A stretch of DNA of 64,000 bases from the NCBI RefSeq assembly GCF_947501425.1, contig NZ_CANMVN010000004.1, positions 124,001 through 188,000 of the forward strand, read 5' to 3'. Of the stretch, positions 5,343 through 31,724 are shown piece by piece (position 1 is the stretch's first letter; each line of letters starts with the position of its first letter). The notes under the pieces are model-generated. The model was not told the DNA's origin. It saw nothing but the letters and a program-made list of their open reading frames with translations, and ran no database searches. This stretch comes from an uncultured Psychroserpens sp. GTDB lineage: Bacteria > Bacteroidota > Bacteroidia > Flavobacteriales > Flavobacteriaceae. A program made the position numbers and the translations under genes.

Positions 5343-7076
5343 ATGAAAAAACTCATACTACTGTTTCTAATTGTAATGTCTTGCTCTTCTGAAAAGACAA
5401 ATCAAAATGCTGATTTCATAACTGTTTTTGAAACCTCAAAAGGCACACAAACTCCAACTTATGATGAAGTCATTGACTTTTATAAAAACTTAGCTAAAAC
5501 CTATGATGCCATCACAATAGAAACAATTGGTGAAACCGACTCCGGAAAACCATTACACGTGGTTACATTGAATCCTGATAACAACTTTGATTTTGAAAAG
5601 ATCAGAGAAAATAAGCGTATCCTTATGATCAATAACGGGATACATCCTGGAGAATCTGATGGTATAGATGCTACAATGCTTTTGTTTCGTGATTTGGTAC
5701 AAGGAACAATTGAGATGCCAAAAAGCACAGTATTGGTAACCATTCCTGTTTATAATGTTGGCGGAAGTTTAAATCGGAATTCTTCAACACGAACTAATCA
5801 AAACGGACCAGAAGCTTACGGTTTTAGAGGAAATGCGCGTAACTATGACCTTAACAGAGATTTTATTAAAACTGATACTAAAAATGCTAAAGCTTTTTCT
5901 GTTATTTTTAATCAGGTTCGTCCTGATGTATTCATAGATAATCATGTGAGTAATGGTGCCGATTATCAATACACACTTACGCATCTATTCACTCAGCATA
6001 ACAAGTTAGGTGGTGCACTTGGAGAATTTTTACACACTGAAATGATGCCACAATTAGAACAAAAGCTCGGAGAAAAAGATTGGGATATCACGCCATATGT
6101 CAATGTATTTAACAGAACACCTGAACAAGGCTTTAGTCAGTTTATGGATTCACCGCGTTACTCAACAGGCTATACAACACTATGGAACACTCTTGGAATG
6201 ATGGTAGAAACACACATGCTTAAACCTTACAAACAACGTGTCGAAGGCACCTACGAACTTATGAAGAGTATGATAGAAATTACTGAGGGTGAGGGTGAAC
6301 GAATTTCAGAATTACGACAGAATGCATTAGCTGAACTAAAATCAAAAAAAACATATCCGCTACAATGGACCATAGATACTACACAATCAACAATATTGCA
6401 ATTTAAAGGCTATGAAGGACAAATGATTGAAAGTGATTTGACAGGAGCGCAACGATTAAAATATGATAGAACTCAACCGTTTACTAAAGAGGTTACATAT
6501 AAAAATTACATGACACCAACTTTAGAAGTTGACATTCCAAAATCATATGTTATTCCGCAAGGCTGGTGGAACGTCATTAATCCTCTCACTTTAAATGATA
6601 TTGTAATTCAAAAACTAGAAAAAGACACAACGATAACTGTTACTTCATATAAAATCAAAAATTATGAAACGAGAACACGAGCCTATGAAGGGCATTATCC
6701 ACATTATAATGTTGAGATAGAATCTTCTACAGAAAAAGTCAAGTTTCGCGAAGGTGACCTCCTTATCAACACCAATCAACGTGGTTGCAGGTATTTACTC
6801 GAAACATTAGAACCTCAAGCACCTGACTCTTTTTTCAGTTGGAATTTTTTCGATACCATCTTACAACAAAAAGAAGGCTTCTCTCCTTATGTATGGGAAG
6901 ATAAAGCAAAACTGCTACTGACTCAAAACCCGAAATTGCAAATCGATTTTAATCTTAAAAAGTCATTCGATGAAGATTTTGCCAATAATTGGTATGCACA
7001 ATTGGATTGGATCCATAAGCAAAGTATACATTATGAAAAAGCACATTTACAATATCCTGTTTATCGTATAGAATAG
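5343..7076 (+). CDS. M14-family zinc carboxypeptidase lipoprotein
   Basis: A 577-aa lipoprotein; the signal ends in VMSC with Cys14 as the lipidation site. Residues 40-310 form an M14 metallocarboxypeptidase domain. The zinc ligands are visible as H101 and E104 (GIHPGESDG) and H201 (FIDNHVSNG). A candidate catalytic Glu is E289 in MMVETHM, and the substrate-binding Arg/Asn are around YDLNRDFIK (168-176). Residues 320-577 are an accessory region typical of the large Bacteroidota members. The expected role is trimming of C-terminal residues from exogenous or cell-wall peptides at the outer membrane. It converges on the repeat protein at 7143, sharing a terminator. Confidence 0.85.
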   Translation: MKKLILLFLIVMSCSSEKTNQNADFITVFETSKGTQTPTYDEVIDFYKNLAKTYDAITIETIGETDSGKPLHVVTLNPDNNFDFEKIRENKRILMINNGIHPGESDGIDATMLLFRDLVQGTIEMPKSTVLVTIPVYNVGGSLNRNSSTRTNQNGPEAYGFRGNARNYDLNRDFIKTDTKNAKAFSVIFNQVRPDVFIDNHVSNGADYQYTLTHLFTQHNKLGGALGEFLHTEMMPQLEQKLGEKDWDITPYVNVFNRTPEQGFSQFMDSPRYSTGYTTLWNTLGMMVETHMLKPYKQRVEGTYELMKSMIEITEGEGERISELRQNALAELKSKKTYPLQWTIDTTQSTILQFKGYEGQMIESDLTGAQRLKYDRTQPFTKEVTYKNYMTPTLEVDIPKSYVIPQGWWNVINPLTLNDIVIQKLEKDTTITVTSYKIKNYETRTRAYEGHYPHYNVEIESSTEKVKFREGDLLINTNQRGCRYLLETLEPQAPDSFFSWNFFDTILQQKEGFSPYVWEDKAKLLLTQNPKLQIDFNLKKSFDEDFANNWYAQLDWIHKQSIHYEKAHLQYPVYRIE

Positions 7077-24277: not shown

Positions 24278-24345
24278 CTAAATGTATAGCAAGTTAAAAA
24301 AAAGCTAATATTAAAACATTAGGCAACCATTTGCTATAGTTTTAC
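24266..24345. repeat. cassette-end-like inverted repeat after the 2H phosphoesterase gene
   Basis: TATAGCAA (24285-24292) and TTGCTATA (24331-24338) form an inverted repeat just after the stop at 24277, preceded by AACGTTGCATAAC which overlaps the stop codon. By position it is the counterpart of the element before the gene. It could also serve as a terminator. It is less regular than the upstream element. Confidence 0.35.
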
Positions 24346-24438: not shown

Positions 24439-25527
24439 ATGAATCAAACCATACTAGACTTTGTGATGATTGCAAGTGTTATTGTAGGGTATTTTGTTAG
24501 TATTTCACTAATTACAACAAAATTCTACAAGAATCGCGCAAATAACTATCTCTCATTATCTCTATTCTTGATTTCTAATTTGACCTTGATTGATTGGTTT
24601 AGTATTAATACCTCTAGCCTACTCGTTGAAATTCTTACACTTTTAAGATTAGATTTTCTATTTGCAGCTACATTATTTACCTATTTTTTAATTCATTTAA
24701 ACCACTCAATTTTAAAAAGTAAATGGTACAAATTGATATATCTGCCGTTCTTTGCCTCTGTTATTCTTGAACTCGCTTTGTTTGTATTTGACCTTTATGG
24801 CTCAATTTATGACTCCATTATCTTTTACATTAAAGATTTTACATCTATAGGCTTTAATATATTTTTAATTTTCTGGGGAAGAACATTAATCCAGAAGTCG
24901 ACCTCTATTTCTAAAAACAAAAAACATTGGCTACTACGATTAAACCTGTTTATTATAGGTCTCATTACCATTTGGATCATCAATAGAATCGAAATATATC
25001 TATTTAATTCCATATATACTGCATACATTCTATGGGTATCTATGTGTTTATTTTTATGGTGGATTTTATATTATGGTGTATTTAGATTGCAAGTGATCGA
25101 TCAAAAAGAGGAAATACATAATTATTTGGTTTCCAAAAAGACAGCTAGCGTTCCAGTAAAGAAGAAAATAAAAAGTGCTACTACGTCTAAAATAATTACT
25201 CAACTTTACAAGTTAATGGAGGATGAAGAATTGTATAAAGATCCGCTTTTAAGTAGATTAGATCTAGCAACTCGATTGGAGACCAGTGAAAGCTATTTAT
25301 CTCAAATTATCAATCAGGAAATCAATAAAAGTGTCATCCAATTTGTAAATGAATATCGCATTGAAGCAGCTAAACATCTTTTGCAAGATCCTTCATTTAA
25401 TAAATACTCAATTGAGGCCATAGGCATGGAAGCTGGTTTTAAATCAAAGAGTGCTTTCTATAATGTTTTTAAAATGAGCTTAGAAATGTCTCCAGGTGCT
25501 TTCAGAAAACACCAAAAATCGTCCTGA
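24439..25527 (+). CDS. membrane-anchored AraC-family transcriptional regulator
   Basis: A 362-aa protein. Residues 1-225 carry about six or seven hydrophobic helices (for example FVMIASVIVGYFVSISLI at the start and LWVSMCLFLWWILYYGVFRL near 215). The C-terminal third (about 255-360) is an AraC/XylS two-HTH domain (LSRLDLATRLETSESYLSQI and the KSKSAFYNVFKMSLEMSPGAF signature). It is expected to bind DNA from the inner membrane in response to an envelope signal. Its stop codon lies inside the first copy of a leader that recurs before 27414. It may therefore regulate 25631 and 27414. Confidence 0.85.
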   Translation: MNQTILDFVMIASVIVGYFVSISLITTKFYKNRANNYLSLSLFLISNLTLIDWFSINTSSLLVEILTLLRLDFLFAATLFTYFLIHLNHSILKSKWYKLIYLPFFASVILELALFVFDLYGSIYDSIIFYIKDFTSIGFNIFLIFWGRTLIQKSTSISKNKKHWLLRLNLFIIGLITIWIINRIEIYLFNSIYTAYILWVSMCLFLWWILYYGVFRLQVIDQKEEIHNYLVSKKTASVPVKKKIKSATTSKIITQLYKLMEDEELYKDPLLSRLDLATRLETSESYLSQIINQEINKSVIQFVNEYRIEAAKHLLQDPSFNKYSIEAIGMEAGFKSKSAFYNVFKMSLEMSPGAFRKHQKSS

Positions 25528-25644
25528 TTCGTCTGAATCTACTGTATTAGTACTTCTTCAGTAAAAAAATTACTCTTTTGTTTTTTTGACAACTATACTT
25601 TTGCCGGTATAAATCAAAAAACAAAAATCAATGAAAAAAGTATT
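25521..25644 (+). promoter_or_regulatory. shared leader/promoter copy A (before the hydrolase lipoprotein)
   Basis: Contains GTCCTGATTCGT (25521-25532, over the stop of the AraC gene), GTACTTCTTCA (25550-25560, exactly 29 bp later), a -7 element TACTTTTG (25596-25603), AAATCAAAAAACA and ATGAAAAAAGTATT. The same order and spacing recur at 27305-27427. The distance from the first motif to the ATG is 110 bp here and 109 bp there. Confidence 0.6.
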
Positions 25645-26533
25645 GACAAAAATGATGCGTATAAAATATGGCGCAACAACTCCAAAACTAATTTTAACCA
25701 CCTTATTATCGGTTATTATGTTATCCTGTTCAAATGATGACGATAAACCTCCTACTCCGACATTTAATGACATACCTCAAAATATTAAGGATCTAATCTA
25801 TTTCAGCGGAGACGAAAAGGCTTCCACTGTTCTCATTAATGCACAAGCCGGACCTTCTATCGTGTTAGATGAAGAATTAGTGGATAATCTTTCCGGATTT
25901 TTAAGTCCTAGAGGTATTTTAACTGTGAATGTGCATCAAGCGCAGACCTTAAATCCAGAAATACTGCTTAACAATGATATTACTCTGGATGACGCCGTTA
26001 ATTTTAACAATCAAAGTATAGAAACCCTATATGAGGTCGTCAATCATTTTAAAGACGAAGGCAGAACTGTTTATGTTTTAGGTCTTTCATTTGGTGCATT
26101 TATAACCCAAGAACTCATAGCTCAAAAAGGCATAGATGTAGCTGACAAGTATCTAATTATTACGGGACGTTTAGATATGAATGATGTTTTTTGGCAGGCT
26201 CTAGCTGAAGGCAGAACTGGAGACTTTGAAAATGGTGTTACACCAATATTAAACTCAGAACCAGAGGAAACTATATTCGGAAGAAATGAAGCTAAGTTGT
26301 TTGCTGGTTTGATAATGAACAGATATACCCAGCATTTTAGTTCTATAGAAAGCTTATCTAATATCACATACATTTATGGAGAAACAGATGAAGCCGTTGG
26401 TAGTCTTACAGCTGAAGAAATTTCATTTTTACAGTCTAAAAACGCGAACATACTTTCTGGGACTGGCGGTCATGATGAGCCTTTTGAGGGCTTCATCGAA
26501 CAAGGTTTTAGTGAAGCATTTGGAATAGAATAA
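25631..26533 (+). CDS. alpha/beta-hydrolase-like lipoprotein
   Basis: A 300-aa lipoprotein with signal ending in MLSC (Cys33), so membrane-anchored. The nucleophile elbow GLSFGA (151-156, Ser153) fits the G-x-S-x-G pattern, with a terminal His in GGHDEPF near residue 279. A beta-strand pattern before the elbow fits the alpha/beta hydrolase fold; an aspartate partner was not assigned. The substrate is unknown. It starts 103 bp after the AraC gene under a leader that it shares with the outer-membrane protein gene 27414. The region downstream ends in a hairpin terminator (26577-26655). Confidence 0.7.
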   Translation: MKKVLTKMMRIKYGATTPKLILTTLLSVIMLSCSNDDDKPPTPTFNDIPQNIKDLIYFSGDEKASTVLINAQAGPSIVLDEELVDNLSGFLSPRGILTVNVHQAQTLNPEILLNNDITLDDAVNFNNQSIETLYEVVNHFKDEGRTVYVLGLSFGAFITQELIAQKGIDVADKYLIITGRLDMNDVFWQALAEGRTGDFENGVTPILNSEPEETIFGRNEAKLFAGLIMNRYTQHFSSIESLSNITYIYGETDEAVGSLTAEEISFLQSKNANILSGTGGHDEPFEGFIEQGFSEAFGIE

Positions 26534-26576
26534 CGACTATTCATATTAATTTAAAAATAAATTACATAAACAAAAC

Positions 26577-26655
26577 AGCGATTTTATTGCTAAGATAAAG
26601 AGGAGTATTTGCATTAATCTTTATCGTTAGTGGATAAAATCGCTACTTTTTTATA
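26577..26655 (+). terminator. long imperfect hairpin terminator
   Basis: AGCGATTTTAT (26577-26587) pairs with ATAAAATCGCT (26634-26644), with further pairing of GATAAAGA against TCTTTATC inside, followed by CTTTTTTATA. It lies 44 bp after the lipoprotein stop. A related shorter hairpin with the same AGCGATTT start occurs at 31772-31805. Confidence 0.7.
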
Positions 26656-26686
26656 GAAAAGTATTTTCAAGCACTGTTTACAAAAA

Positions 26687-27277
26687 ATGAAATCGAGGTA
26701 TGTATTACTATTAGCTTTTTTTTTATTCAAAATACAATCCATTGTTGCTCAACATACATTCATGGAAATTGGTGTAGGGATTGGAAATGTAGTGGGTAAT
26801 AAAAACGCTCGTGGTAAAGGTGAATTACATTTTAATATTATAAAACCTTACAAGTTTGGTCAATTAGGATTAGACGTTTCTACTGGTGGAAATTTCATTC
26901 TAGGCACAACACCTATTGTAGATGAAAATATGGAAACATTATCTTCAAATGACTTCAAGTTTTCTGCTATTACAGTGCTATATAGATTACCTGTAAAAAC
27001 GTATGGTTTTGTTGAGCCAAGATTAGGATATTCGTCATTGTTTACATTTGTGCACACAGATGATAAAACCAAAATAAGTCAACCAAATGTTACTGTTGGA
27101 ATAGGTATTGGTGCACATCTTAATAATTTCACGCTATCATTAAGGTATCAACACCTTGGAGTTACTCCCAATTACATCGGAACGAAGAATACAATAATAG
27201 TCAAGTCAAATTCTGAATCTTTAGACCTGTTACTATTGAGGGTATCCTATCGTTTCAATCTCAAAAAATCATTTTAG
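26687..27277 (+). CDS. putative outer-membrane beta-barrel protein
   Basis: A 196-aa exported protein with a signal peptide (1-21, ending VAQ). The mature part alternates short amphipathic strands and turns (IGVGIGNVVGNKN, FGQLGLDVSTGGNFILGT, VTVGIGIGAHLNNFTLSLRY) and ends in a strand with VSYRFNLKKSF, the aromatic C-terminal residue typical of beta-barrels. No named family was recognised. It is preceded by a CACTGTTTA motif also found at 29137 and loosely at 31755. Confidence 0.6.
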   Translation: MKSRYVLLLAFFLFKIQSIVAQHTFMEIGVGIGNVVGNKNARGKGELHFNIIKPYKFGQLGLDVSTGGNFILGTTPIVDENMETLSSNDFKFSAITVLYRLPVKTYGFVEPRLGYSSLFTFVHTDDKTKISQPNVTVGIGIGAHLNNFTLSLRYQHLGVTPNYIGTKNTIIVKSNSESLDLLLLRVSYRFNLKKSF

Positions 27278-27304
27278 TTAGGTATATGATAGAACGAATC
27301 AAAC

Positions 27305-27427
27305 GTCCTGATTCGTGTAATTGTATTGTTTCAGTACGTCTTCAATCTCAATATTAACGTTTTGTTTTGATTTGAAATCTACGTTTGCACCCATAAATCA
27401 AAAAACATAATTTATGAAAAAAGTATT
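27305..27427 (+). promoter_or_regulatory. shared leader/promoter copy B (before the porin-like gene)
   Basis: Contains GTCCTGATTCGT (27305-27316), GTACGTCTTCA (27334-27344, 29 bp later), a TTTG at 27361-27364, a -7 element TACGTTTG (27380-27387), ATAAATCAAAAAACA and the same ATGAAAAAAGTATT coding start. Same order and spacing as at 25521. Between the blocks the bases differ, which points to selection on the motifs rather than a very recent copy. Confidence 0.6.
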
Positions 27428-27977
27428 ATTAGTAACTGCTATTGCAGTTATAGGATTATTAAATGTTAACGCACAAGAAATTAAGTTTGGTGCTAAAGCA
27501 GGTTTGAATTTTGCATTCATTACCGGAGACAACACAAAAAATTTTGATCCCAACACAGATTTTCATTTGGGAGTCATGGCAGAAATTAAGATTTCAGACA
27601 AATTCTCTTTCCAACCCGAATTAATATATTCTGGACAAGGAGCAGATACAAACATTGAATCAGAAGGGAGTATTGCTCTAAATTATTTAAATGTTCCATT
27701 AATCGGGAAGTACTATGTTACAAAAGGATTGAGTTTAGAAGCAGGTCCACAAATAGGTTATTTGCTTTCTACTAAAGGTGGAACTTTAGATTATAAAGAT
27801 CTTTTAAAACCTATAGATTTTGGTGTGAATTTTGGTGTCGGTTATAAACTTGATAACGGTCTCAATTTTAGCGCAAGGTATAATCTTGGACTATCTAATA
27901 TTAATGATGTAGACGGTTTTACAGATAAAAACAGAAACGGTGTAGTTCAGCTATCCATAGGCTATTTCTTTTTCTAA
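27414..27977 (+). CDS. porin-family outer-membrane beta-barrel protein
   Basis: A 187-aa exported protein; signal peptide ends NAQ (about residue 20). The mature part fits the outer-membrane beta-barrel family PF13568, with the recurring start IKFGAKAGLNFAFITGDN and strand pairs such as KFSFQPELIYSGQGA and VGYKLDNGLNFSARYNLGLSN. It ends VQLSIGYFFF, an aromatic barrel end. It is monocistronic, preceded by the shared leader and followed by a hairpin at 27994-28017. Substrate or role unknown. Confidence 0.82.
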   Translation: MKKVLLVTAIAVIGLLNVNAQEIKFGAKAGLNFAFITGDNTKNFDPNTDFHLGVMAEIKISDKFSFQPELIYSGQGADTNIESEGSIALNYLNVPLIGKYYVTKGLSLEAGPQIGYLLSTKGGTLDYKDLLKPIDFGVNFGVGYKLDNGLNFSARYNLGLSNINDVDGFTDKNRNGVVQLSIGYFFF

Positions 27978-28044: not shown

Positions 28045-29124
28045 ATGAAAAACATAAAAACAATCGTATTACTTCTAGCACTGTCATTATTATCAATGAA
28101 CTTTAGTTGTTCTAATAATGATGATGAAGTTAAAATTGATGATTTCTCTTCACTTGATACAGAACTTATAGCAAGGGACTTTACAGGTGTTGTTTTAGTC
28201 ACTCAAAATGACGATATCTTATTTAACAAAGCCTATGGAAGAAAAAATAGTCAAGCAAATGGGTTTAATGATATCAATACTGTTTTTGATATGGGCTCTA
28301 TTACAAAGCAATTTACTGCAGCAGGAATTTTAAAACTAGAGATGCAAAATGAGCTGTCAGTTGATGATAACTTATCAAATTACTTTGACAATGTTCCTAA
28401 TGATAAAGAGAATATAACCATTCATCAGTTGCTAACCCATTCTTCTGGTTTATTAAATGGAATAGGTGGAGATTATGAAACCATTACTGAGGAAGAGTTT
28501 TTAGACCAAGTTTTTGATAGCGAATTAATTGATCCTGTTGGGGAAAGATTTAATTATTCTAATGTAGGCTATAGCTTACTTGGTTTAATCATAGAAAAAG
28601 CCAGCGGCATGGATTATGAAACCTTTTTAAATGTAGAGATTTTTGAACCTTCAAACATGTACCATACTGGTTATGTAATTCCAGATTGGCAAGAAGATGA
28701 AGTGGCTAACGGTTATTTGAATGGTGTTGAAAATAATAAGCCAAATGAAGAGAATTGGAATGAAAATGGACCTTATCTCAACCTCAAAGGAAATGGAGGT
28801 ATTCTAACCCGAGCCAATGATATGTTACTCTGGAGTCAATCCATAATGAATAATACAGTACTAGATGAAGCAACTACCTCTAAATATCTTTTTCCACATT
28901 TTCAACCTACAAATATTTACGATAGCTATGGATATGGCTGGGGAATTGAAAATCATGACTCCGAGAATAAATTAGTATTACATGGAGGCACCACTGATTT
29001 GTTTGCATCTGATATGTGGTTCTACCCAAACAAAGGAATTACAATAATTGTACTCAGTAATGAACTTGACCCATTTGTATACACGATTGCAGGAGACATA
29101 TCAAACTTCTTACTCGTAGAGTAA
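28045..29124 (+). CDS. serine hydrolase of the class-C beta-lactamase family, lipoprotein
   Basis: A 359-aa lipoprotein (NFSC, Cys22). The penicillin-binding-protein fold has the SxxK motif SITK (S85, K88), the YxN motif YSN (171-173) and a terminal LHGGT motif near 316 in the position of KTG. Unlike typical AmpC, the last motif is HGG, as in many esterases/peptidases of this family, so penicillin hydrolysis should not be assumed. It is a close paralogue of 30360, from which it differs mainly by lacking the 80-residue N-terminal domain. It lies in an open row of three genes with the trypsin-like protease between. Confidence 0.85.
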   Translation: MKNIKTIVLLLALSLLSMNFSCSNNDDEVKIDDFSSLDTELIARDFTGVVLVTQNDDILFNKAYGRKNSQANGFNDINTVFDMGSITKQFTAAGILKLEMQNELSVDDNLSNYFDNVPNDKENITIHQLLTHSSGLLNGIGGDYETITEEEFLDQVFDSELIDPVGERFNYSNVGYSLLGLIIEKASGMDYETFLNVEIFEPSNMYHTGYVIPDWQEDEVANGYLNGVENNKPNEENWNENGPYLNLKGNGGILTRANDMLLWSQSIMNNTVLDEATTSKYLFPHFQPTNIYDSYGYGWGIENHDSENKLVLHGGTTDLFASDMWFYPNKGITIIVLSNELDPFVYTIAGDISNFLLVE

Positions 29125-29188
29125 AAGTATGACCTACAACACTGTTTATGTAGAATAATAAAATCAAATTCAAAAATTTAAATAAAAA

Positions 29189-30343
29189 ATGAAACAAATA
29201 AAATCAATCATATTACTTCTAACGTCGTCAATACTACTAGTAAGCTTTAATTACACAAATAGTAGCGAACACGATTCTATGATAACTAGACATGATAAAG
29301 AGGACGCTGAATTTATCGAACTAGCAAAGCGTTTTGAAAAATACATATGTCATCTAAACTTACCTGATTGTGAAGGCACAATAATAGCCGATGAATGGGC
29401 AATAACAGCAGCCCATTGTGCTGTAGGAATTGCAGAGAAATTTGAAGCGGGACTAAAACATTTCGTCATAATCAATGATACTGAAATAGAAGTTGACAAG
29501 GTGATTATGTATAAGGAATGGGAAAATACCGAAGAATATACTTCCATGGAACCATTAAATGATATCGCATTAGTACATCTTAAGACAAAACCTATTGGTG
29601 CACTACAAGCAAAATTATATATGAAAAACGATGAAGTAGATAAGCTTATCTATATGGTGGGTAGAGGAGATAAAGGTGACGGATTAATTGGAATAAATGG
29701 TAACGACGGCAAGCAAAGAGGTGCTACCAACAGAATAGAAAAAGCTACCGAAAGATGGTTAAGATGGACCTTTGATCATCCCGACACCAAAACAAAATAT
29801 CTTACCGAACATGAAGGTATTAGTGGCCCTGGCGATAGTGGTGGACCAGCTTTTATTGTTAAAGATGATATTGTATATCTAGCTGGTATTAGCTCGTGGC
29901 AAGATACAAAAGACGGTCCAGAAGGCTTGTACGGTGTCGTAGAGAATTACACCAGAGTATCACAATTTATTAAATGGATTAATGATGAAATGACTGGAAC
30001 TGGTAATACTAGAGAAGACATGTTAAGAGTTGAAGCAAAGCCTAATGCAATTGATGATAGACCTAAAGCTATAGATATTGATTTAAGGATTTTAGAACAA
30101 TACGTTGGTGAGTATGAGTTGCGAGGCACTACGATTAAGATATATACAGAAGAGAATGGTTCTAAGCTATATTTATTCTTGACAGACCAGCAACCGTATG
30201 AACTAGTTCCTACAGGAGAACATCAATTTACTTTTAAAATATCAAATGAATATAAAATAGAATTTAAGAATCCAGAAAATGGGGTGTTTAAGAAATTAAT
30301 AGCCACTCAACCTGATGGAATATATACAGCAGTAAGAAAATAA
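29189..30343 (+). CDS. trypsin-like serine protease with C-terminal DUF3471-like domain
   Basis: A 384-aa exported protein (hydrophobic N-terminus, residues 5-20). Residues 48-270 are an S1 chymotrypsin-fold protease: H76 in TAAHC, D125 in LNDIAL and S217 in GPGDSGGPA. Residues 303-384 form an extra domain (YVGEYELRG to IYTAVRK) resembling DUF3471, which normally follows beta-lactamase-fold serine hydrolases. The same domain occurs at the N-terminus of the next gene. Cys77 sits next to the active His as in trypsins. It was probably assembled by domain shuffling with its neighbour. The target is unknown; a role in processing extracellular protein is plausible. Confidence 0.85.
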   Translation: MKQIKSIILLLTSSILLVSFNYTNSSEHDSMITRHDKEDAEFIELAKRFEKYICHLNLPDCEGTIIADEWAITAAHCAVGIAEKFEAGLKHFVIINDTEIEVDKVIMYKEWENTEEYTSMEPLNDIALVHLKTKPIGALQAKLYMKNDEVDKLIYMVGRGDKGDGLIGINGNDGKQRGATNRIEKATERWLRWTFDHPDTKTKYLTEHEGISGPGDSGGPAFIVKDDIVYLAGISSWQDTKDGPEGLYGVVENYTRVSQFIKWINDEMTGTGNTREDMLRVEAKPNAIDDRPKAIDIDLRILEQYVGEYELRGTTIKIYTEENGSKLYLFLTDQQPYELVPTGEHQFTFKISNEYKIEFKNPENGVFKKLIATQPDGIYTAVRK

Positions 30344-30359
30344 ATACTAAAAATTTAAA

Positions 30360-31724
30360 ATGAAAACAACAAACACAATCTTAATACTTCTAATGATGTT
30401 ATTTTCATCTATGGTCTTTAGTTGCACAAATGGTAGTAAACAAAAAACGACTGATGTAACTGCTATCAATTCTTTAAAACCATATGTAGGACAATATGTG
30501 CTTGAAGCAGCAGGAATGATAATAGAGATATACACAAAAGAAAATAATACTAAACTATTTTTATTTGTAGATGGACAACCAGAATATGAATTAGTTGCAA
30601 CTGGAGAGCACAAATTCTCTTTTAAAATATCAGACGAGTATAACATAGAATTTAAAAATCTTGAAAATGGTGTTTTTAAAGAATTAGTCGCCACACAACC
30701 TGATGGAACTTATACAGCGGTTCGTAATGGAGAATTGAAAATTGATGATCTAACGACTATTGATAAAAAACTAACAGAAAGAGAATTTTCAGGAGTTATT
30801 CTAGTCGCTCAAAATGATAGTATTATATTTAATAAGGCCTATGGCAAAAAGAACAATCAACAAACAAATGACGTTAATACCGTTTTTGATATTTGTTCGA
30901 TTACAAAACAATTTACTGCAGCAGCAATACTAAAATTGTCCATGCAGAACAAGGTGTCTACAGATGATAAACTATCTAAATATTTTGAAAATGTTCCAAA
31001 AGATAAAAAAGATATTACCATTCATCAATTACTTACACATACTTCTGGTTTAACCGACGGGATAGGTGACGATTATGAAAGTATCACGGAAGAAAGGTTT
31101 CTTAAAAAAGTATTCCGTAGTAAACTGTTAAGTCCAGTTGGAGAAAATTTCAATTATTCTAATATGGGATATAGCTTACTTGGTTTAATCATTGAAAAAG
31201 TAAGCGGAATGGATTATGAGACCTACTTGAGTGAAGTCATTTTTAAACCTTCAAAAATGTTCCATACTGGCTATGTAATTCCAGACTGGGAACTTAACGA
31301 GGTTGCCAACGGTTATTTAGATGGAAAAGAAGCTAAAAAACCAAATGAAGAGAATTGGAGTGACAATGGACCGTATCTTAATCTTAAAGCAAATGGTGGT
31401 GTATTGACAAGAGCCAGCGACTTATTACTCTGGAGTCAATCTATAAGGGATAATACAGTACTTGATGAAGCAACAACAGCTACATATCTCTATCCCCATT
31501 TTCAATTCAATGGGATGTATACGCACTATGGATATGGCTGGGGAATTGAAAATAATGATTCAGAGAATAAGTTAGTAGTTCATGGTGGTGCTAGCAATCT
31601 GTTTGCTTCAGACTTCTGGATTTACCCCAATAAAGGAATTACAATAATTATACTCAGTAATACACAAGAGGAATATGTTTACTCAATTGCAAGAAAAATA
31701 TCAAAATTTTTACTAGCAAAATAA
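30360..31724 (+). CDS. serine hydrolase (class-C family) with N-terminal DUF3471-like domain, lipoprotein
   Basis: A 454-aa lipoprotein (VFSC, Cys22). Residues 41-122 are the DUF3471-like domain also found at the end of the preceding protease; over the last two thirds about 70% of positions agree by eye. Residues 130-454 are a serine hydrolase with SITK (S180, K183), YSN (266-268) and HGG (408-410), a paralogue of 28045. Domain order is reversed from the usual (hydrolase then DUF3471). It begins 16 bp after the protease stop, so the two are probably co-expressed. The substrate is unknown; penicillin-resistance is not implied. Confidence 0.85.
   Translation: MKTTNTILILLMMLFSSMVFSCTNGSKQKTTDVTAINSLKPYVGQYVLEAAGMIIEIYTKENNTKLFLFVDGQPEYELVATGEHKFSFKISDEYNIEFKNLENGVFKELVATQPDGTYTAVRNGELKIDDLTTIDKKLTEREFSGVILVAQNDSIIFNKAYGKKNNQQTNDVNTVFDICSITKQFTAAAILKLSMQNKVSTDDKLSKYFENVPKDKKDITIHQLLTHTSGLTDGIGDDYESITEERFLKKVFRSKLLSPVGENFNYSNMGYSLLGLIIEKVSGMDYETYLSEVIFKPSKMFHTGYVIPDWELNEVANGYLDGKEAKKPNEENWSDNGPYLNLKANGGVLTRASDLLLWSQSIRDNTVLDEATTATYLYPHFQFNGMYTHYGYGWGIENNDSENKLVVHGGASNLFASDFWIYPNKGITIIILSNTQEEYVYSIARKISKFLLAK

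Follow-up and report, generated by a model that had tools for sequence, protein, structure and literature searches.

A probable operator-promoter cassette at the 3' end of the gene for a membrane AraC-type regulator in Psychroserpens and related Flavobacteriaceae

Why do two genes for putative envelope proteins begin behind a shared leader, and why does one copy of that leader start inside the gene of a neighboring regulator? We addressed this question in a 64,000-nucleotide stretch of DNA from an uncultured Psychroserpens sp. (contig NZ_CANMVN010000004.1, positions 124,001 to 188,000), here called the window, in which about 122 nt are common to a gene for a hydrolase-like lipoprotein and a gene for an outer-membrane beta-barrel. 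Our reading, to which we assign a probability of about 0.85, is that the shared leader combines a promoter with the operator of the seven-helix AraC-type membrane regulator encoded next to it, at 24439-25527. The genes and leader elements are as follows.

24439-25527, plus strand: membrane AraC-type regulator, 362 aa (HTH_18, 8.3e-18; hydropathy)
25631-26533, plus strand: predicted driven gene 1, an alpha/beta-hydrolase-like lipoprotein (GLSFG motif of the GxSxG type and lipobox LSC, read from the sequence)
27414-27977, plus strand: predicted driven gene 2, an outer-membrane beta-barrel (PF13568, 1.4e-25; NF049866, TDE1717 family, 136.8 bits, cutoff 135)
25521 and 27305, plus strand: first motif, GTCCTGATTCGT
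25550 and 27334, plus strand: second motif, GTACTTCTTCA and GTACGTCTTCA respectively, 29 bp past the first motif
25596-25603, plus strand: -7 promoter element TACTTTTG, of the TAnnTTTG type (sequence, and spacing in 33 aligned leaders)
27380-27387, plus strand: -7 promoter element TACGTTTG (same basis)
25611-25623, plus strand: element AAATCAAAAAACA, presumably within the 5' leader and retained in many of the 33 leaders aligned
27395-27407, plus strand: element AAATCAAAAAACA in the presumed 5' leader (sequence)
25631 and 27414, plus strand: start-region sequence ATGAAAAAAGTATT

All of the elements that the preliminary description of this DNA had listed are present where it placed them, the distance from the first motif to the ATG being 110 bp in the 25631 copy and 109 bp in the 27414 copy, and the first copy does lie over the end of the regulator gene, whose TGA stop (25525-25527) falls inside the site. 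The same description held that the intervening bases differ, which is true of some positions, but the two copies are 71% identical in register and the bases between the motifs are thus not simply different. The composite pattern matches twice in the window and never in 100 dinucleotide shuffles, and with up to three mismatches allowed it still finds only these two leaders in the 3.70-Mb genome, so that the pair of motifs occurs nowhere else in the organism's own genome. A sequence-only leader model built from 30 leaders (R1, which omits L047, a near-twin of L048, as well as L057, L060 and leaders found later) likewise returns the same two leaders as its strong matches, the next best scoring 17.4 bits. 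Element AAATCAAAAAACA has two genomic copies, both within these leaders, a count that is no excess in itself because the reversed control gives three matches; scans for sigma-70 promoters and terminators returned nothing above shuffles.

The motif can indeed be read directly, as had been proposed, but the actual element begins 2-4 bases further left than described, and its left and right parts form an inverted repeat.

25517-25560, plus strand: candidate operator 1, 44 bp, with half-sites at 25519-25527 (TCGTCCTGA, which holds the TGA stop) and 25547-25555 (TTAGTACTT, reverse orientation)
27301-27344, plus strand: candidate operator 2, 44 bp, intergenic, with half-sites at 27303-27311 (ACGTCCTGA) and 27331-27339 (TCAGTACGT)

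The consensus is AMGTMCTRA...TYAGKACKT, with half-sites 28 bp apart from center to center. Across 30 aligned leaders (alignment A3), columns 3-11 and 31-39 are 76% Watson-Crick complementary over nine pairs, against a median of 25% over 529 combinations of axis and arm and 53% for the best other axis; three loci (L068, L056, L051) carry a perfect dyad in the 7-bp core. When the columns of 29 leaders were permuted, none of 100 permutations reached the inverted-repeat score, whereas 136 of 200 reached the direct self-similarity, and we rejected the reading as a direct repeat of two words 29 bp apart, which does no better than permuted columns. The element therefore belongs with inverted-repeat AraC-type operators, an assignment that speaks to how the operator would work and not to kinship, and not with direct-repeat operators such as araI, in which the half-sites share one orientation. 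Downstream of the dyad, at a nearly fixed distance in the 33 aligned leaders, come a T-rich stretch, the TAnnTTTG element and an A-rich leader; 40 bp separate the end of the operator from the -7 element, and the -33 region looks poor. A site upstream combined with a poor -33 region is expected of an activated promoter, and on this ground we think it unlikely that the regulator instead represses, blocking the promoter from the same operator until a signal releases it.

If the leader is the regulator's site, the two should travel together, and they do. Among 97 genomes searched, a close ortholog occurs in the organism's own genome and in three others (64-72% identity), and the motif occurs in exactly those four, with no match to a reversed control pattern in any of the 97. 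Across 397 genomes of the family, leaders above 28 bits and orthologs above 400 bits fall in the same five; the 392 genomes that lack a close ortholog yield just two weak R1 matches (26.8 and 24.9 bits), which fall within unrelated coding sequence or across its start. One ortholog is found in Psychroserpens algicola (L042). Regulators that were found by protein and omitted from R1 (L047, L057, L060, one in genome G182 and two in G257) all adjoin an R1 site (6/6). A scan of 24 genomes, that of L049 not among them, gave 45 R1 sites above 28 bits, the next score being 20.6, and G257 has a third site (C65); by coordinate matching, 31 of them adjoin a known regulator and 14 lie elsewhere. Nine regions around newly found sites contain a further regulator just upstream in six cases and none in three, and six of the 31 site-adjacent regulators were themselves discovered through their sites.

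A single residue of the regulator varies together with the operator. Three regulators, L047, L048 (from Aquimarina sp. AU58) and L053, have asparagine at residue 337 of the second recognition helix, where the remaining 29 rows of the comparison have lysine (28 distinct loci, L050 and L111 being one locus counted twice), and no other position is unique to the three. All three asparagine-bearing regulators, and no others, adjoin operators whose left half-site reads CTCC instead of GTCC and whose right half-site reads GGAA instead of G-NAC, so that the K337N change accompanies the loss of a G in both half-sites; the left G is kept beside all 29 lysine-bearing rows, with the one locus counted twice (Fisher 2e-4). 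In a tree of the membrane part alone, 337 changed twice and a single clade is rejected (AU p 0.011). One shared transfer is unlikely because the codons for N337 are AAC, AAC and AAT and because the DNA-binding segment of L053 is about equally close to L048 (82.8%) and L102 (82.5%). Two genomes (G101 and G105) each hold one N-type and one K-type regulator beside matching operators. By motif alignment, residue 337 presumably opens the helix that corresponds to helix 6 of MarA, with K337 in the place of Gln91. Helix 6 of MarA (Gln91-Phe102) inserts into the major groove (PMC11633057).

Taken against the preliminary description, which had proposed a small regulon of the adjacent AraC-type gene, these results are favorable: in relatives the motif pair accompanies the close ortholog only (4 of 97 and 5 of 397 genomes), the relatives that keep the regulator also retain the leader, whose divergence there had been named as grounds for refutation, and the idea that the motif is the regulator's site gains from the change in the recognition helix that tracks the change in the operator.

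The position of the site hardly varies, and the gene behind it does. A public scan returned 31 loci, comprising 25 full-length orthologs (L041-L062, L065, L066 and L068, with one undetermined residue in L061), three in which the DNA-binding part is lost and three matched in the DNA-binding domain only (L069-L071, which were not used). The full-length orthologs come mostly from Aquimarina, with others from Tenacibaculum, Polaribacter, Dokdonia and Psychroserpens, and in 25 of 25 the site lies downstream of the regulator or over its stop. Twenty-four of these sites begin within the regulator's last codons, 23 at one offset and L065 shifted by 7, and the exception, L044, has its site 260 bp further downstream. 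Since the site begins in the last codons, the stop codon is usually part of the half-site GTCC-TRA (TAA in 16, TGA in 12 and TAG in none of the 28 regulators checked); the half-site is nevertheless not merely a stop codon, because intergenic copies keep it. In the three degraded loci (L063, L064, L067) the membrane part is largely open, the DNA-binding part is missing or broken, and no site is left. The leader is conserved across genera ahead of unrelated genes, and about eight gene families, mostly exported, follow the regulator-adjacent sites of 32 regulators, including L049.

Hydrolase: 5 regulators
Beta-barrel of the 27414 type: 5 regulators
No Pfam match, may be an outer-membrane protein: 12 regulators, including L057 (no open frame reaching 70 aa there)
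Clostripain-like C11 peptidase: 3 regulators
S41 peptidase: 3 regulators, two by likeness of the start only
Trypsin: 1 regulator
Serine hydrolases of the beta-lactamase fold: 2 regulators
Unassigned: 1 regulator

At loci with two sites, the order of hydrolase and barrel can swap while both retain their site (L043, L052, L054, L065). The regulator appears to drive whichever exported enzyme or surface protein adjoins it. The window's own hydrolase (25631-26533) has no Pfam match at 0.001, with weak similarity to LIDHydrolase (E=0.034) and Abhydrolase_6 (E=0.25).

The two leaders might also be a recent duplication or examples of a general promoter class, and not this regulator's sites at all; their 71% identity over 122 nt, which includes ATGAAAAAAGTATT, and the left-half variants that copies within one genome sometimes share speak for this. 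We consider it very improbable, as the 392 genomes without a close ortholog give only the two weak matches, within unrelated coding sequence or across its start, and as the leader is kept across genera before unrelated genes and its motif is tracked by residue 337. Slighter still is the chance that the element acts as RNA, at the 3' end of the regulator mRNA or as a 5' leader structure: its left half-site does overlap coding sequence and AAATCAAAAAACA does lie in the presumed 5' leader, but the dyad precedes the promoter and changes together with a residue of the recognition helix, and we rejected this reading for want of a stable or covarying fold (consensus fold -0.82 kcal/mol, covariation term 0.01, single-sequence z -1.35).

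Several observations weigh against assigning the leader to this regulator, or against parts of that assignment. No site that could account for its own control lies upstream of the window's regulator gene. In the stretches examined of L105 and L106 the site stands before a beta-barrel gene and no regulator is present; for the site in L107, the first 400 bp contain no clear gene. The most diverged lysine-bearing regulator, L060, also departs from the matching base in its right half-site; neither the Fisher test nor the shuffles take relatedness into account, and the case for K337N depends on two origins. Activation, finally, is deduced solely from the position of the site and the poor -33 region. 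A third copy of TACGTCTTCA does stand upstream of the regulator gene, at 24343, but autoregulation through it was rejected because its partner half-site is missing; the window holds 19 10-mers with at most one mismatch to TACGTCTTCA, where shuffles average 12.2 and 5 of 100 contain at least 19. At L110, a weaker copy of the site (5429-5472, minus strand) lies upstream of a regulator in divergent orientation and is a possible autoregulatory site.

How would such a regulator work? Hydropathy gives about seven hydrophobic segments (residues 8-26, 38-56, 61-79, 99-117, 127-145, 163-181 and 186-215), followed at the C-terminus by an AraC-type DNA-binding domain (residues 276-357) that accounts for the only two Pfam matches above cutoffs, HTH_18 (8.3e-18) and HTH_AraC (3.8e-8), in keeping with the AraC/XylS family. 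The sequence itself establishes the site with its symmetry and position, its company with the regulator and its covariation with residue 337; beyond this we infer direct binding, a dimer, activation and an envelope signal. The two-HTH domains, anchored on the cytoplasmic side of the membrane, would bind the inverted repeat AMGTMCTRA as a dimer, on a site whose left end covers the regulator's stop codon and whose right end lies 40 bp short of the TAnnTTTG promoter, and a signal sensed by the membrane part would switch on the next gene. Through the second operator copy, this control would extend to the beta-barrel gene 27414, and in relatives the cassette would remain fused to the regulator while the driven gene is exchanged.

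Parts of this arrangement have counterparts in known systems. RhaS and RhaR are soluble AraC-family sugar sensors with inverted-repeat operators upstream of the promoter, and they share with our system the two-HTH AraC-type domain and the two inverted half-sites upstream of a promoter; they differ in that the window's regulator has a membrane N-terminus and its operator overlaps its stop codon. ToxR, TcpP and CadC are membrane one-component regulators with a winged-helix domain and a single membrane pass. Like them (ToxR and TcpP are named in PMC11323476), the regulator proposed here would be a single membrane protein that also binds DNA, but with an AraC-type domain and about seven segments in place of a winged helix and a single transmembrane helix. 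Bacteroides hybrid two-component systems are described in PMC11253607 as joining a membrane sensor and a transcription regulator in one protein, a likeness within Bacteroidota, but the 362-aa regulator lacks the histidine kinase and receiver domains of that class (Pfam, E<=0.001). Sequence comparison gives the regulator the DNA-binding fold of MarA, Rob and RamA (RamA chain 7bef_G, E=0.0015); MarA is described as a monomer (PMC11633057), whereas the window's site is an inverted repeat.

A further likeness is found in the gammaproteobacterium Saccharophagus degradans. The existence of membrane-bound AraC regulators is already known from that species, where several lie near degradative enzyme genes and are proposed to sense extracellular polymers, and the available text names no operator, stop-codon site or recognition residue (PMC2386152). 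The matches listed in our literature search, mostly titles and the starts of abstracts, include no described operator for membrane-bound AraC-type regulators.

Similar dyads sit beside distant paralogs. Homologs are widespread (L124 was matched in 78 of 299 family genomes at E<=1e-20, some in the DNA-binding part alone). Distant ones (24-34% identity in one search, 28-33% in another), including the paralog L036 in the organism's own genome, have the same kind of dyad close to their stop codons. The pattern GTCC-N8-28-GGAC occurs near the stops of 9 of 72 homologs in a first set and 22 of 39 gathered later, against shuffle means of 0.3 and 0.2, and in no window inside the same genes (0/72 and 0/39); it was chosen on the first set and applied to the hold-out only after those sequences had been seen, and the control gene ends of its first run still included regulators. 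The pattern GTNC-N25-RNAC, for which another control set was used, is present in 18 of 72; other spacings average 2.5, and the counts are 4 of 177 at the ends of other genes and 1/72 and 0/39 inside the same genes. A pre-set test on the hold-out (GTNC, N14 or N25, RNAC) gave 7 of 39 (shuffle mean 1.9, largest 6 in 1000), although the hold-out was gathered with two first-set members as queries and many of its N12 dyads come from one ortholog group. Among the 68 of 72 homologs whose recognition helix could be parsed, a GTNC-type dyad accompanies 33 of the 62 that carry lysine where the regulator has residue 337 and none of the six that do not. The next gene is exported after 71 of 97 regulators and for 99 of 216 other locus genes, a modest excess by a crude hydropathy rule. 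One group of membrane AraC homologs (L204-L228) has a highly conserved block like GTCCGAAATTATCGTTGGACATCC just past the stop codon, often ahead of a gene starting MIPxLILYLL.

We tentatively suggest, while holding it at low odds, that Flavobacteriaceae contain a large class of membrane AraC regulators whose genes each end in the regulator's operator, which often covers the stop codon, with capture in cis, swappable exported cargo and residue 337 setting part of the half-site code. The nascent chain entering the membrane would pull the gene end to the membrane, and a regulator unable to diffuse would therefore find its site in cis, while residue 337 would keep paralogous pairs within one genome from cross-talk. 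Some results count against this wider proposal: the N14 spacing (12/72 in the first set) did not recur in the hold-out (0/39, all matches being N25), the single-sequence dyad score is weak (7/72 at p<=0.05), and outside the family 1 of 18 homologs has the dyad, which is chance level.

The remaining features of the neighborhood are set out here.

26687-27277, plus strand: cluster gene that lacks both a site and a Pfam match; L033 and L034 have a counterpart in the corresponding position

Between the hydrolase gene and this gene, a long hairpin at 26577-26644 (z -6.1; -29.7 kcal/mol when the flank is included) leads into a T-run and is probably a terminator; its equivalent in L034 has a different sequence and similar folding (z -5.4). 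A small exported protein with no significant Pfam match follows the hydrolase in L034 (9129-9620), L033 (2550-3026) and L035 (1630-2100), and the window has no frame at that place. Past the barrel gene, 28045-31724 encodes a trypsin-like protein and two serine hydrolases with the beta-lactamase fold; L033 and L034, and in part L035, have similar genes there, and homologs directly carry the operator in L050, L104 and L108. Elsewhere in the window, TTGCTGATCCGT occurs five times between 8177 and 9676 with a 372-bp period, which points to a tandem repeat array.

What the locus offers is likely a cassette of operator and promoter, attached to the 3' end of the gene for a membrane AraC-type regulator, with a readable inverted-repeat code and exchangeable cargo. 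Operator, geometry, likely specificity residue and driven genes can here be read together, so that target prediction for membrane AraC regulators becomes testable, with the natural K337/N337 pairs in single genomes as controls.

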